DNA of 64,000 nt, from positions 124,001 to 188,000 of the forward strand of contig NZ_JAJNKA010000011.1 in the NCBI RefSeq assembly GCF_021533215.1. Reading direction: 5' to 3'. Shown here piece by piece: positions 42,246 to 46,427 of the stretch. Source of the stretch: Portibacter lacus (GTDB lineage: Bacteria > Bacteroidota > Bacteroidia > Chitinophagales > Saprospiraceae). A model generated the notes under the pieces. It made no database searches. It saw nothing but the letters and a program-made list of their open reading frames with translations, and was not told the origin of the DNA. Position 1 is the first letter of the stretch; each line of letters begins with the position of its first letter. The position numbers and the translations under genes are program-made.

Positions 42246-42665
42246 TTAAACATCTAACTCATGCACAAACCTCGGTGCCAATTTCTCATCTGGCAACATA
42301 CAAGCCTCCGATTTCCCAAACCAAGAATATCGATTATTAGAAACCTTCATGTATAACTTGTCTCGCCATTTCTTAGGCAGAATGTATCCGATCTTAAATA
42401 TCATCCAAGGAAAACCGATGGTCGAAAACAATTCAATGACAGCCGAAGAATAGAAATACAATTCTCCATCTTTTAGAAAAGCTACAGATTTGTAATTAGC
42501 TGCTTCAACAAACTCAGAAGGCAACATTGACCTAGAAAATTCCGATTGCAAACTGGCAAATCTTAACTTTTCATTCCGATCAATCTTTAATAGTAGTTTC
42601 AGTAGATTACCACAAAGCACACATTGACTATCAAAAAAAACAACATTGTTATCCGAAGAGATCAT
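42246..42665 (-). CDS. DCC-family thiol-disulfide oxidoreductase-like protein (DUF393)
   Basis: This 139-aa protein carries the defining motif DSQCVLC (residues 12-18, DxxCxxC) after a short strand VVFFD, with the rest of a thioredoxin-like fold and a hydrophobic C-terminal part. The family is named for its DCC residues, and a redox role is assumed, not proven. Its start overlaps the 3' end of radA by 17 bp, so it is the second gene of a radA operon. Confidence 0.85.
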   Translation of the reverse strand: MISSDNNVVFFDSQCVLCGNLLKLLLKIDRNEKLRFASLQSEFSRSMLPSEFVEAANYKSVAFLKDGELYFYSSAVIELFSTIGFPWMIFKIGYILPKKWRDKLYMKVSNNRYSWFGKSEACMLPDEKLAPRFVHELDV

Positions 42666-44019
42666 TAAATAAGGTTTCGATTTTACTGATCATAACAACT
42701 TCTATACTGAAGCGGTTCAAGTCTAAACCTTTAGCATTAGATTTTGGAATGTATATTTTAGTAAAACCTAGCCGAGCGGCTTCTTGAATTCTCAATTCAA
42801 TTCCTCGAACTGCCCGAATTTCACCCGAAAGACCGACCTCTCCAGCAAATGCATATTCTCTCGAGATACTGATATCTTGCATCGATGAAATCAAGGAACT
42901 AACAATGGCGAGATCAGTTGCCGGATCGATAACTTTAATACCACCAGCTATATTTAAGAAAACATCATACTGGCCTATCGGAAAGCCAACCCTTTTTTCA
43001 AGAACAGCAAGTAACATGTGGAGTCTCCGCAGATCATATCCAGTTACACTTCGCTGCGGTGTGCCATATACGGCGGTACTCACTAATGCTTGAATCTCGA
43101 TCAACATTGTTCGACGACCTTCCATGGTTGCTGCAACTGAACTACCACTGAGCAGTTCTTCGCTCTGGGATAATAAAATTTCAGAAGGGTTAGAAACTTC
43201 ACGTAGACCTTCGGCAGTCATTTCGTAAATGGCAAGCTCATCTGTAGATCCGAATCTGTTTTTCTGAGTTCTAATAATCCGATAAGAATAATTCTGGTCG
43301 CCCTCGAAAAGCAATACGGTATCGACCATGTGCTCAAGCAACTTTGGTCCAGCGATTGCACCTTCTTTATTAATATGGCCAATAATAAAAACCGGAATCT
43401 GTGAGGTCTTTGCAAATTTCATTATTTCATTCGTAGACTCCCGAACCTGAGTAATACTTCCTGGAGAAGAATCTAGTTCTGGAACGCGCAAGGTCTGAAT
43501 GGAATCTATAATAACCAAGTCTGGTTGTTGTTTCATGGCTTCTTTCAGCAAAACTGGGATAGAAGTCTCTGTATATATAATACATTGCTTATTTGTTATC
43601 CCGATTCGATCCGCCCGCATTTTAATTTGTTCTTCACTCTCTTCACCAGAGACATAAAGAATTTTCATGCTAGACCTAATAGCGAGCTGTAATAAAAGCG
43701 TCGATTTACCAATTCCTGGTTGTCCACCAAGTAAAACAATGCCTCCTCTTACGATGCCTCCACCTAAAACTCGATCCAGTTCTGCATCTCCTGATGACTT
43801 GCGAATGATATTACCTTGTTGAACATCACTTAGTGGAATAGGAATTACTTTTGTATCTCCTGAGAAGCTATATTTTACGCGGGTTTCGGCTTTTGGATCT
43901 TTGTGGATAATTTCCTCTTGATAGGTATTCCATTCGTTACATGAAGGACAATTTCCAATCCATTTTGCGGAATGAGCACCGCAGTTAGAGCAGATATAAA
44001 CAGTTTTTGCTTTAGCCAT
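42649..44019 (-). CDS. radA: DNA repair protein RadA
   Basis: This 456-aa protein processes branched recombination intermediates. It has an N-terminal C4 zinc finger (CSNCGAHSAKWIGNCPSC), a RecA-like ATPase with Walker A GGQPGIGKSTLL (about 97-108), the RadA-specific motif KNRFGSTDE, and a C-terminal Lon-like domain. A sequence TAATTTTG (44032-44025, minus) lies only 6 bases before the ATG and would imply a nearly leaderless transcript if used. Confidence 0.96.
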   Translation of the reverse strand: MAKAKTVYICSNCGAHSAKWIGNCPSCNEWNTYQEEIIHKDPKAETRVKYSFSGDTKVIPIPLSDVQQGNIIRKSSGDAELDRVLGGGIVRGGIVLLGGQPGIGKSTLLLQLAIRSSMKILYVSGEESEEQIKMRADRIGITNKQCIIYTETSIPVLLKEAMKQQPDLVIIDSIQTLRVPELDSSPGSITQVRESTNEIMKFAKTSQIPVFIIGHINKEGAIAGPKLLEHMVDTVLLFEGDQNYSYRIIRTQKNRFGSTDELAIYEMTAEGLREVSNPSEILLSQSEELLSGSSVAATMEGRRTMLIEIQALVSTAVYGTPQRSVTGYDLRRLHMLLAVLEKRVGFPIGQYDVFLNIAGGIKVIDPATDLAIVSSLISSMQDISISREYAFAGEVGLSGEIRAVRGIELRIQEAARLGFTKIYIPKSNAKGLDLNRFSIEVVMISKIETLFNDLFG

Positions 44020-44241
44020 AAAAACAAAATTAAAGTAAATATGTTAAAAGAGTCATGTTTCCGTAAACAAACACGTTAAAGTTTTTGGAATTACACAGGA
44101 GATTATATATTTACACCTAGAGAAATGAAAAGCTTGACCTATATCAACTAATTAATTTTTTTGGAAACATATTCGAACTAAACTACTGTTAGAGTGGTTT
44201 CATAGTCACAACAAAAGGATGAAGATCTTTTTAAAAGAAAT

Positions 44242-44336
44242 AAAGCTCGTTAATTAGCGGGTAAAGAATTGTTTTCAATTGGTTTTTTGGGGTTATGCAG
44301 GGTGTCATGTTCTTATACTGGCGCCCTGTTCTTTTA
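44242..44336 (+). ncRNA. Tandem structured RNA, copy 1 (unknown family)
   Basis: Starts AAAGCTCG and shares with copies 2 and 3 the core AAAGAATTGTTTTCAATTGG followed by TTTTTTGGGGTTATGCAGGG. It forms a CTCG/CGGG hairpin, an AATTG-TTTT-CAATT hairpin, and a terminator hairpin CAGGGTGTC (44298-44306) / GGCGCCCTG (44320-44328) followed by TTCTTTT. The T-tract sets the strand. Unlike the other copies it lacks the GTGAC-N15-CGTC upstream motif. No open reading frame; the family is not one I recognise. Confidence 0.6.
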
Positions 44337-44406
44337 TAATGAAGGGAAGATTGAGCAGGAAAATAAAGACGATTTAAAAATATTTTAAAATAATTTATTT
44401 TTAAAT

Positions 44407-44436
44407 GTGACTTTTTGAAAGTGTACCGTCTTAAAG
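44407..44436 (+). promoter_or_regulatory. Candidate ECF-like promoter of RNA copy 2
   Basis: GTGAC (44407-44411), 15 bases, then CGTCTTAAAG (44427-44436). The same layout precedes copy 3 at the same distance from its core. Confidence 0.45.
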
Positions 44437-44476
44437 GTGTAATTAGATAATAAGATAAAGATCTTATAAAAAAAAT

Positions 44477-44570
44477 AAAGCTCGCTTACTAGCGGGCAAA
44501 GAATTGTTTTCAATTGGTTTTTTGGGGTTATGCAGGGTGTCACGTTCTTACGTCGGCGCCCTGTTCTTAT
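44477..44570 (+). ncRNA. Tandem structured RNA, copy 2 (unknown family)
   Basis: Same core as copy 1. The first hairpin is CTCGCT/AGCGGG, and the terminator is CAGGGTGTC (44533-44541) / GGCGCCCTG (44555-44563), extended by ACG/CGT, then a T-rich tail. With the upstream motif at 44407-44436 the transcript would start near 44438 and be about 130 nt. A short minus-strand reading frame across it is judged not real. Confidence 0.65.
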
Positions 44571-44780
44571 TCTAGGAAGTATGAACTCACAGAACATGTG
44601 TTTTTTAGAAGGTAGCAATAGTTCGATTCACGTCATTTCGGACTTCAAAAATTGAGGTCACATAAAAAAATGAAAATAACTCAACTTTTTTTTATTGCAC
44701 TGAAAGGACCATTATCAAAGGGTTTCGGAGACATTTAGGTTTGAATTTGAAAATTTATTTTACTTTTTTTTGAAAAGATT

Positions 44781-44810
44781 GTGACCTTTTGAAAAGTGTG
44801 CGTCTTAAAG
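44781..44810 (+). promoter_or_regulatory. Candidate ECF-like promoter of RNA copy 3
   Basis: GTGAC (44781-44785), 15 bases, then CGTCTTAAAG (44801-44810). The blocks, the spacing, and about 40 bases after them (AATTA, TAATAAGATAAAGAT) match copy 2. Confidence 0.45.
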
Positions 44811-44848
44811 ATGTAATTAAGTAATAAGATAAAGATTTTATAAAAAAT

Positions 44849-44944
44849 AAAGCTCGCTAGTTCGCGGGCAAAGAATTGTTTTCAATTGGTTTTTTGGGGT
44901 TATGCAGGGATCGTCGAACCGTCGAGGATACCCTGTTTTTTTTT
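44849..44944 (+). ncRNA. Tandem structured RNA, copy 3 with exchanged terminator loop
   Basis: Core identical to copies 1 and 2 up to ATGCAGGG. The terminator then differs completely, yet pairs: CAGGG (44905-44909) with CCCTG (44931-44935), ATC with GAT, and TCGA with TCGA, followed by nine T. The inner sequence GCAGGGATCGTCGA is the same as in the REP-like copy at 28689. Confidence 0.65.
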
Positions 44945-44997
44945 GCCCAATTTCTTTTTTGAGGCGTAGATTTACTAATCCAGTCTCATTTTCTTAT

Positions 44998-45357
44998 TTA
45001 GTGTCTAGCTGCACACCTCACACATTGGTCACTTTCTGGCATATACATAAGTCTCTTCGGTTGGATTTCATTTTTGCAATAAGTACAAATCCCGAAATTT
45101 TCATTATCAATATTAGATAGCGCAGTTTTTAATTTAGCAAGTTTTTTTCTTGTATTGCGCAATGATGCTTCCATAACGCTCTTGTTATTAATTGCATCCA
45201 TTCGGCTAATTCGGCCGAGCGAGTTCTCTGGTTTTACAGGCTGGGTATTGTTTTCCATGTTAATAATATCAAGCTGAGCCTTTTCGACCATAGCAATAAT
45301 TTTGCTTTTGAGCAATAATTTCTCTTTTTGTTCCATAAAACAGCAAGTATTTGACAT
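44998..45357 (-). CDS. TraR/DksA-family zinc-finger protein
   Basis: This 119-aa protein has an N-terminal helical coiled coil and a C-terminal C4 zinc finger: CTYCKNEI, then CVRCA. DksA-family proteins bind the RNA polymerase secondary channel and, in some species, act with ppGpp. It lacks the DxxDxA tip motif in a form I can identify. It is divergent from the next gene, with an 83-bp gap between them. Gene named as family only. Confidence 0.85.
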   Translation of the reverse strand: MSNTCCFMEQKEKLLLKSKIIAMVEKAQLDIINMENNTQPVKPENSLGRISRMDAINNKSVMEASLRNTRKKLAKLKTALSNIDNENFGICTYCKNEIQPKRLMYMPESDQCVRCAARH

Positions 45358-45845: not shown

Positions 45846-46427
45846 TTGGATAGGTTAGATTTACATGTTGAGAGTTTAATATTTGCGACTGATGTACCCA
45901 TCAGCGCCGAAATGATAAAGAAATGCCTGGATCGATTATTGGTCCAGGATTTTGATATTGGGGAAATCCACCAAGCTATTTTTCGATTAACTGAGAAATA
46001 TAATGCAGATTCATTTGCGTTCGGTATCGATGAAATAGATGGTGCATTCGCATTTATGAGCAAACCTGCATATCATGCAACAGTAGGATCGTTACTGAAA
46101 GAGAAATCTAATTCTAAGTTAACTAAGGTGGCCATGGAAACTTTAAGCATTATAGCTTATAAGCAACCGGTAACGAAGACTTTTATAGAAAGTATCAGAG
46201 GTGTAAATAGTGACTACACCGTTCAGAAATTATTAGAAAAAGAATTAATAGAGTTGGCAGGTAGAGCTGAAGGGCCAGGAAAGCCACTACTATATAGAAC
46301 GAGCGCTAAGTTCATGGATTACTTTGGGCTTAAGTCAGCTAAAGATCTACCGACTTTAAAAGAATTTAATCAATCAGAGGAGACGATCGGTCAACCATCC
46401 TCGATAGAAATTGTTGAAGAAGAATGA
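45846..46427 (+). CDS. scpB: Segregation and condensation protein B
   Basis: This 193-aa protein pairs with ScpA and SMC in chromosome compaction. It shows the two winged-helix domains, including LHVESLIFATDVPISAEM at the start and VAMETLSIIAYKQPVTKTFIESIRGVNSDY, the most conserved ScpB stretch. It uses a TTG start; there is no ATG nearby that keeps the first helix. It overlaps the next gene by 4 bp. scpA is not in the window. Confidence 0.9.
   Translation: MDRLDLHVESLIFATDVPISAEMIKKCLDRLLVQDFDIGEIHQAIFRLTEKYNADSFAFGIDEIDGAFAFMSKPAYHATVGSLLKEKSNSKLTKVAMETLSIIAYKQPVTKTFIESIRGVNSDYTVQKLLEKELIELAGRAEGPGKPLLYRTSAKFMDYFGLKSAKDLPTLKEFNQSEETIGQPSSIEIVEEE

Follow-up and report, generated by a model that had tools for sequence, protein, structure and literature searches.

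To our knowledge, little is known about post-transcriptional control in Bacteroidota outside Bacteroides. In enterobacteria, an envelope-stress ECF sigma factor, sigmaE, drives the small RNAs MicA, RybB and MicL. CsrB/RsmZ and 6S are decoy RNAs with protein-binding elements, of which CsrB has several in one transcript, and a GGA motif is the signature of CsrA. The Saprospiraceae RNA described here would resemble MicA, RybB and MicL as an ECF-driven small RNA; no sequence relation is claimed, and the porin-type mRNA pairing is theirs. Its core holds no GGA motif, and no Rfam family matched the RNA.

The nearest analogue in layout and logic is FopS/GibS of Bacteroides, as described in the part of the report cited here (PMC11697453), although membership is not claimed. 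Both are multi-copy paralogous small RNAs of Bacteroidota with a conserved single-stranded stretch before a Rho-independent terminator, and the same part of that report places a FopS/GibS sequence in a phage, as is the case for the Saprospiraceae core. FopS/GibS are bound by the RRM protein RbpB, and binding by an RRM-1 protein together with pairing to susC-like mRNA is among their defining traits. FopS is given canonical housekeeping-sigma promoters in that part of the source (PMC11697453), whereas nearly half of the host copies of the Saprospiraceae RNA have an ECF-like motif upstream; this RNA differs further in its radA locus and in its arrays of core-hairpin units. The FopS-type layout of core plus terminator was present, and many host copies add a 5' hairpin. 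An Rfam cmscan of the window, which may lack a FopS model, gave no FopS hit, and the two RNAs are set apart by description, not by sequence. A second Bacteroidota small RNA, Rfp11 of Flavobacterium psychrophilum, is likewise compared by description; the part of the source cited here lists it under an ECF-type motif with a CGT -10 box (PMC9723704).

The three-copy element and its family

The window is the whole stretch of 64,000 nt of Portibacter lacus DNA that was analysed. A 40-nt core occurred in it three times with zero mismatches (44263-44302, 44498-44537 and 44870-44909; shuffled expectation 0.00), with spacings of 235 and 372 nt between successive copies, as in the original prediction of a near-invariant 40-base core. 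Parts of the region are covered by frames of 72 and 77 aa, which by eye are not common to the copies, in line with the claim that no shared reading frame exists. Folding confirmed that the first hairpin keeps its pairing (CTCGT or CTCGC with GCGGG) across the copies and that the CAGGG/CCCTG stem is kept while the inner pairs differ, as had been stated. The folding z-scores against dinucleotide shuffles were -3.41, -5.19 and -2.68 for copies 1, 2 and 3, and -3.22, -5.51 and -2.37 from the inferred starts. From promoter to terminator, copies 2 and 3 would measure about 131-133 nt, which fits the predicted RNA size of 100-130 nt. The host assembly (6.31 Mb, 43 contigs) contained no copies beyond these three, the next blastn match having an E-value of 0.64. 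A simple terminator scan of 44000-45020, with narrow loop and tail limits, found no terminator; therefore, the window terminators rest on folding and comparison. A simple promoter scan of the same region gave no more matches than in shuffles. The three window copies alone hold few changes, and the strong covariation evidence comes from their homologues.

Table 1. Annotated features at the three-copy locus (positions in the window)
Feature	Position	Strand	Basis
radA/sms	42649..44019	-	domains (Zn ribbon, KaiC-type ATPase, Lon C-terminal domain); synteny
Copy 1, 5' hairpin	44245..44262	+	fold
Copy 1, 24-nt conserved core	44271..44294	+	exact repeat, alignment, exact 24-mer scans
Copy 1, predicted terminator hairpin and U tract	44297..44337	+	fold, covariation
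Copy 2, ECF-like promoter TGTGAC-N15-CGTCTTA	44406..44433	+	exact motif match
Copy 2, 5' hairpin	44480..44497	+	fold
Copy 2, 24-nt conserved core	44506..44529	+	exact repeat, alignment
Copy 2, predicted terminator hairpin and U tract	44532..44571	+	fold, covariation
Copy 3, ECF-like promoter TGTGAC-N15-CGTCTTA	44780..44807	+	exact motif match
Copy 3, 5' hairpin	44852..44869	+	fold
Copy 3, 24-nt conserved core	44878..44901	+	exact repeat, alignment
Copy 3, predicted terminator hairpin and U tract	44904..44945	+	fold, covariation
DksA/TraR-type zinc-finger protein	44998..45357	-	PF01258 at 23.7 bits, slightly below its cut-off of 24.9; synteny
scpB	45846..46427	+	domains; synteny

Copy 2, used as blastn query, had matches in 117 of the 150 genomes searched from its GTDB family, and in many of these the core and terminator part alone was matched. 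A first covariance model (R1), trained on 37 aligned copies, was run on 298 genomes of the order and had matches in 77, of which 76 belong to the family itself. One same-order match (G254; L078, contig 14) was rejected, as its contig end was 100% identical over 1295 nt to the family genome G102 (L356); the contig end carrying the RNA is probably misbinned. A second model (R2), built from 118 aligned host and phage matches and with training copies partly from the genomes searched, matched 127 of the 150 family genomes and 99 of 112 genera. Counting the better genomes of the family alone, 109 of 129 were matched, and 23 of the 150 gave no match with R2. At least two matches per genome were found in 56 of the 127, with up to nine, while 71 had a single match. 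The 24-mer GTTTTCA[A/T]TTGGTTTTTTGGGGTT occurred in at least 118 stretches of an 84,980-species genome collection; among the 80 matches listed, 68 were named Saprospiraceae, Saprospirales, Lewinella, Neolewinella or Flavilitoribacter and 12 carried a broader name.

No convincing copy was found in other bacterial families by a phylum search with R1 or a class search with R2. The phylum search matched nine of 395 genomes, five of them in-family; the other four matches were rejected as weak, appeared by eye to follow reading frames and had no promoter motif upstream. The class search matched 13 of 395 genomes, and the eight out-of-family matches were again weak (30-44 bits, promoter score at most 9/13), such as a core-plus-terminator model would pick by chance. 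Near position 1501 of four loci from other families of the class (L380, L382, L381 and L070), terminator-like hairpins apparently follow stop codons and are accompanied by partial core matches (TTTTCATTTGGTTT in L380, after a frame resembling dnaK). These matches are likely due to chance and may instead reflect a wider pre-terminator element.

The Rfam check that the original prediction had called for was carried out by cmscan. With Rfam 15, no family reached the gathering threshold in the window except one tRNA elsewhere, the five matches obtained in the three-copy region at E-values up to 10 were all far under threshold, and among 18 loci, most with the RNA, tRNAs alone were matched. No title naming the RNA was found in literature searches on Saprospiraceae small or non-coding RNA, on small RNAs of Lewinella, Saprospira and Haliscomenobacter or, among the matches listed, on Bacteroidetes structured RNAs. 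Judging from these comparisons, the three-copy element is a member of a real RNA family, large and previously uncatalogued. The proposal of an unknown multi-copy small RNA family is upheld by homologues in most sampled genera, terminator covariation, a conserved promoter motif and the lack of an Rfam match; a decayed repeat without homologues elsewhere, which had been named as one refuting case, is contradicted by homologues in most family genomes. The members are putative regulatory small RNAs.

The element consists of a variable 5' hairpin, a near-invariant core GUUUUCA[A/U]UUGGUUUUUUGGGGUU and a covarying terminator. Across 116 distinct aligned rows, 92.8% of the terminator cells pair, two-sided changes occurred in 314 cells vs 67.7 in shuffles, and the covariation score was 0.602, compared with 0.163 after shuffling and no more than 0.133 when partners were slid, in an alignment that was fitted to the terminator structure and favours it. 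Two-sided changes in 13 of 13 terminator pairs are not discriminating, as shuffles average 12.1; before fitting (37 copies, MAFFT and RNAalifold) they were found in six of 13 pairs. In some genera the whole stem sequence is replaced while the core stays. The covarying terminator hairpins that had been claimed were thus borne out across homologues, and the hairpin pairing stood; the most conserved part proved to be the 24-nt core, not the hairpins, and the family also reaches phages.

The variable core position was A in 59 and U in 133 of the 192 host copies holding the 21-mer, and U in 20 of 20 phage copies. The core was taken as single-stranded because the U variant breaks an AUUG/CAAU mini-hairpin. 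Elsewhere the core deviates in a few family genomes (L069, L089, L096 and L097). The 5' hairpin sequence varies between genomes. The 51 nt up to the core had a mean folding z of -1.31 over 98 host copies, of which 48 lay under -1.5, and of -0.80 over 17 phage rows, of which five did. As drawn from the phage copies, the predicted minimal unit is the core plus hairpin.

Gene neighbourhood and the ECF-like promoter motif

The divergent gene next to the RNA in the window, which we take to be radA from its domain architecture, recurs as a divergent neighbour in 65 of 113 non-redundant host loci, its midpoint usually 0.8-1.1 kb upstream. A DksA/TraR-type gene was a neighbour in 32 of the 113 and scpB in 18; all these counts are lower bounds, since no locus exceeded 8 kb, many spanned 3 kb and contig ends cut some. 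Loci without the listed neighbours were RNA copies elsewhere or were cut by contig ends. Five loci carry arrays of two to five core-hairpin units in a row, as read from the sequence in L097, L211, L214 and L246 and from spacing alone in L269. Units are spaced by about 90 nt, and by 73-140 nt in L097. Where the array was read (four loci), one ECF-like promoter was seen by eye before the first unit and none in the spacers; the units would putatively form one transcript in a CsrB-like decoy layout.

A bipartite motif was found by reading upstream sequences and was scored as TGTGAC-N-CGTCTTA with a threshold of 11/13. It was reached upstream of 39 of 76 copies vs 0.55 expected from shuffles, and among copies not used to find the motif in 43 of 101 upstream vs 0 of 101 downstream. 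For the first copy set the counts were 30 of 62 upstream vs 7 of 62 downstream, where downstream motifs can belong to the next tandem copy and one promoter can count twice in arrays. More than half of the copies missed the threshold in the 101-copy and 62-copy scoring. Window copies 2 and 3 carry the exact motif and copy 1 was below threshold, and 0 of 18 phage copies reached it. According to the part of the source cited here, F. psychrophilum promoters with a CGT -10 box count as ECF-type (PMC9723704). Tested in this way, the host RNA family carries a predicted ECF-sigma-type promoter upstream. The housekeeping box TAnnTTTG occurred within 130 nt of the core in 26 of 139 host copies upstream vs 19 of 139 downstream, and in phages in nine of 19 vs three of 19.

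In the host genome, TGTGAC-N15-18-CGTCTTA gave eight exact matches vs one in the reversed control, while a second form, GTGAC-N16-17-CGTCTWA, gave four in each. Two of the eight are window copies 2 and 3, and one precedes an OsmC/hydrolase gene. The genes of the F. psychrophilum SM6 ECF regulon include type IX secretion genes in the part of the source cited (PMC9723704), whereas none was recognised among the eight matches here. Two of the eight precede, by eye, short stretches ending in terminator-like hairpins. At L103:1501-1605 (G000:C38:29163 onward) a GATTGGAG/CTCCAATC hairpin with a T run comes, by eye, no more than about 75 nt after an exact TGTGAC-N16-CGTCTTA; this resembles a further small RNA gene of the regulon, one that lacks the core. 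At L104:1501-1680 (G000:C38:40716 onward) an exact motif is followed after about 110-130 nt by a terminator-like hairpin (by eye), possibly also a small RNA gene.

Of the 34 sigma-70 region 2 hits in the host genome, 30 were examined for an upstream motif. The best was found at an ECF gene (G000:C22:261275; 11/13, TGTTAC-N15-CGTCTAA), and two other sigma genes scored 10. This ECF gene, a 62-aa frame and a mechanosensitive-channel protein form an apparent operon with its own ECF-like motif (L113:1393-2987). Among its orthologue regions, 13 of the 20 scored (the host's included) reached at least 10 vs about 1.7 expected, with 10 of 30 not scored. We infer that this sigma factor may drive the RNA. 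Position 4 is G in the small RNA motif and mostly A or T in the motifs of the ECF gene itself; therefore, another factor may read the small RNA motif.

Copies in phages

The exact 24-mer was detected in 19 IMG/VR stretches and the 21-mer in 22, two of these on one contig; L294, L304 and L306 share flanks, and the 19 viral stretches are therefore not independent. From 15 of the 19 viral loci 19 proteins were tested. Packaging, head or tail genes were found in 12 of the 15 loci, phage primases in two and a protease alone in one. The phage terminases at core-bearing loci fall in different PHROG families. R1 matched 16 of 16 phage loci (26.9-55.2 bits). A search of INPHARED with the 116-nt copy as query gave chance-level matches only.

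No U run followed the hairpin in the phage loci L295, L297, L298 and L299. The core lies 16 nt after two tRNAs in L300, about 100 nt after one tRNA in L295 and about 160-230 nt downstream of a terminase gene in L292, L296 and L305. The scanned core of L289 and L303 has a TAnnTTTG box beginning 15 nt ahead of it, from which the RNA would start at the core. A tRNA-like gene (ARAGORN 'tRNA-???') directly precedes the core in L294, L304 and L306, and by eye the copies in L296 and L298 follow sequences resembling tRNA 3' ends. The likeness to the phage-encoded anti-sRNAs of E. coli, as given in the part of the source cited (PMC4104026), would be that of phage small RNAs acting in a host RNA network. 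The E. coli phage anti-sRNA opposes a host small RNA (PMC4104026, same part), whereas in Saprospiraceae the phage copy and the host RNA share one core.

Possible partners of the core

We give roughly even odds (about 0.5) to the reading that the Saprospiraceae family consists of small regulatory RNAs that act in trans, are stress-inducible and dock one conserved partner through the core. Because about half of the host copies carry the ECF-type motif, the RNA would probably be made under envelope or osmotic stress. It would present a near-invariant, single-stranded, U/G-rich 24-nt core before a Rho-independent terminator, with a 5' hairpin of free sequence ahead of it in many host copies, and the core would be the working part. 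The core most likely docks one conserved cellular partner, which is more probably an RNA-binding protein, titrated or recruited, than a set of perfectly matching mRNAs. This leaning follows from the absence of a recurrent perfect complement among the sites examined, from start-region pairing not clearly above chance, from a conserved stretch of about 24 nt, longer than a short seed, and from arrays presenting the unit several times, which fits a multivalent decoy. The phages carry the same core with other expression signals, and during infection their copies would probably act on that partner too. A more specific form, to which we give well under even odds, is a stress RNA confined to this bacterial family that titrates a conserved RNA-binding protein via the core, sometimes in arrays of core-hairpin units; several phages that differ in their packaging genes would have captured it, stripped it to core plus hairpin and set it behind promoters of their own or tRNAs to hijack or silence the partner.

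A realistic possibility, though short of even odds, is a base-pairing small RNA like FopS/GibS or RybB, with the core as a seed repressing many mRNAs, e.g. of secreted or outer-membrane proteins, at translation-initiation regions under stress. The minimal form, a 5' single-stranded stretch plus terminator, is the FopS layout in the part of the report cited (PMC11697453). With the ECF-like -10 box of L199, L226 and L245, or the TAnnTTTG box of L289 and L303, the RNA would begin at the core or a little ahead of it. Inspection by eye also shows AAATGAAAAC, typical of a start region, in the complement of the U-variant core. However, an AUG-anchored test of 453 start regions rejected an anti-start-codon seed (p 0.85; register 0 no better, no preferred register, shuffles equal), and 59 of 192 host copies have A at the core position that would pair with the first base of AUG. 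Duplexes at -12 kcal/mol with 602 start regions numbered 281 vs a shuffled-core mean of 237 (sd 32), a count that exceeds the mean somewhat and falls inside the spread of the shuffled cores (up to 40). The core-complementary 13-mer, counted in 100 genomes, had 207 matches vs 21 in the reversed control, many of them the RNA genes themselves. Extra sites were taken as 20 stretches from six genomes (G018, G030, G055, G099, G102 and G104). Those of G102 were further RNA copies (L355 and L356; L354 by the following hairpin), most others resembled coding sequence by eye in the printed context, and no recurrent complementary target was seen among the 20; a lack of 13-mer complements says little about short seeds, against which the start-region tests are also weak. 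Host 16S gave no match in the host assembly.

It is unlikely that the core is a cis-acting 3'-end element marking or strengthening a special terminator or RNA-processing site, with no free RNA. The hairpin after the core in the copies examined, the positions 3' of terminase and tRNA genes in phages and the weak class-level matches apparently right after stop codons would suit such an element, but at the radA locus the gene 5' of the RNA runs the opposite way, nearly half of the copies have their own promoter motif, and the class-level matches are of the chance type. Compensatory hairpin changes, the conserved promoter motif and the recurrent radA neighbourhood would be unexpected of a phage-spread recombination, packaging or integration site without RNA function, which makes such a DNA-level repeat very improbable despite the exact 24-nt identity in hosts and phages, the tandem copies and the tRNA 3' end-like sequences before two phage copies.

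Saprospiraceae are abundant in wastewater treatment plants worldwide, as stated in the part of the source cited (PMC9304909). The RNA would be a new family of a known general kind, with the ECF link, the phage copies and the arrays as an unusual variant. That the core is kept near-unchanged in most of the genera sampled, and also in phages whose terminase families differ, points to a single strong interaction that has been conserved. With the ECF link and the phage copies, stress control and host takeover become directly testable.
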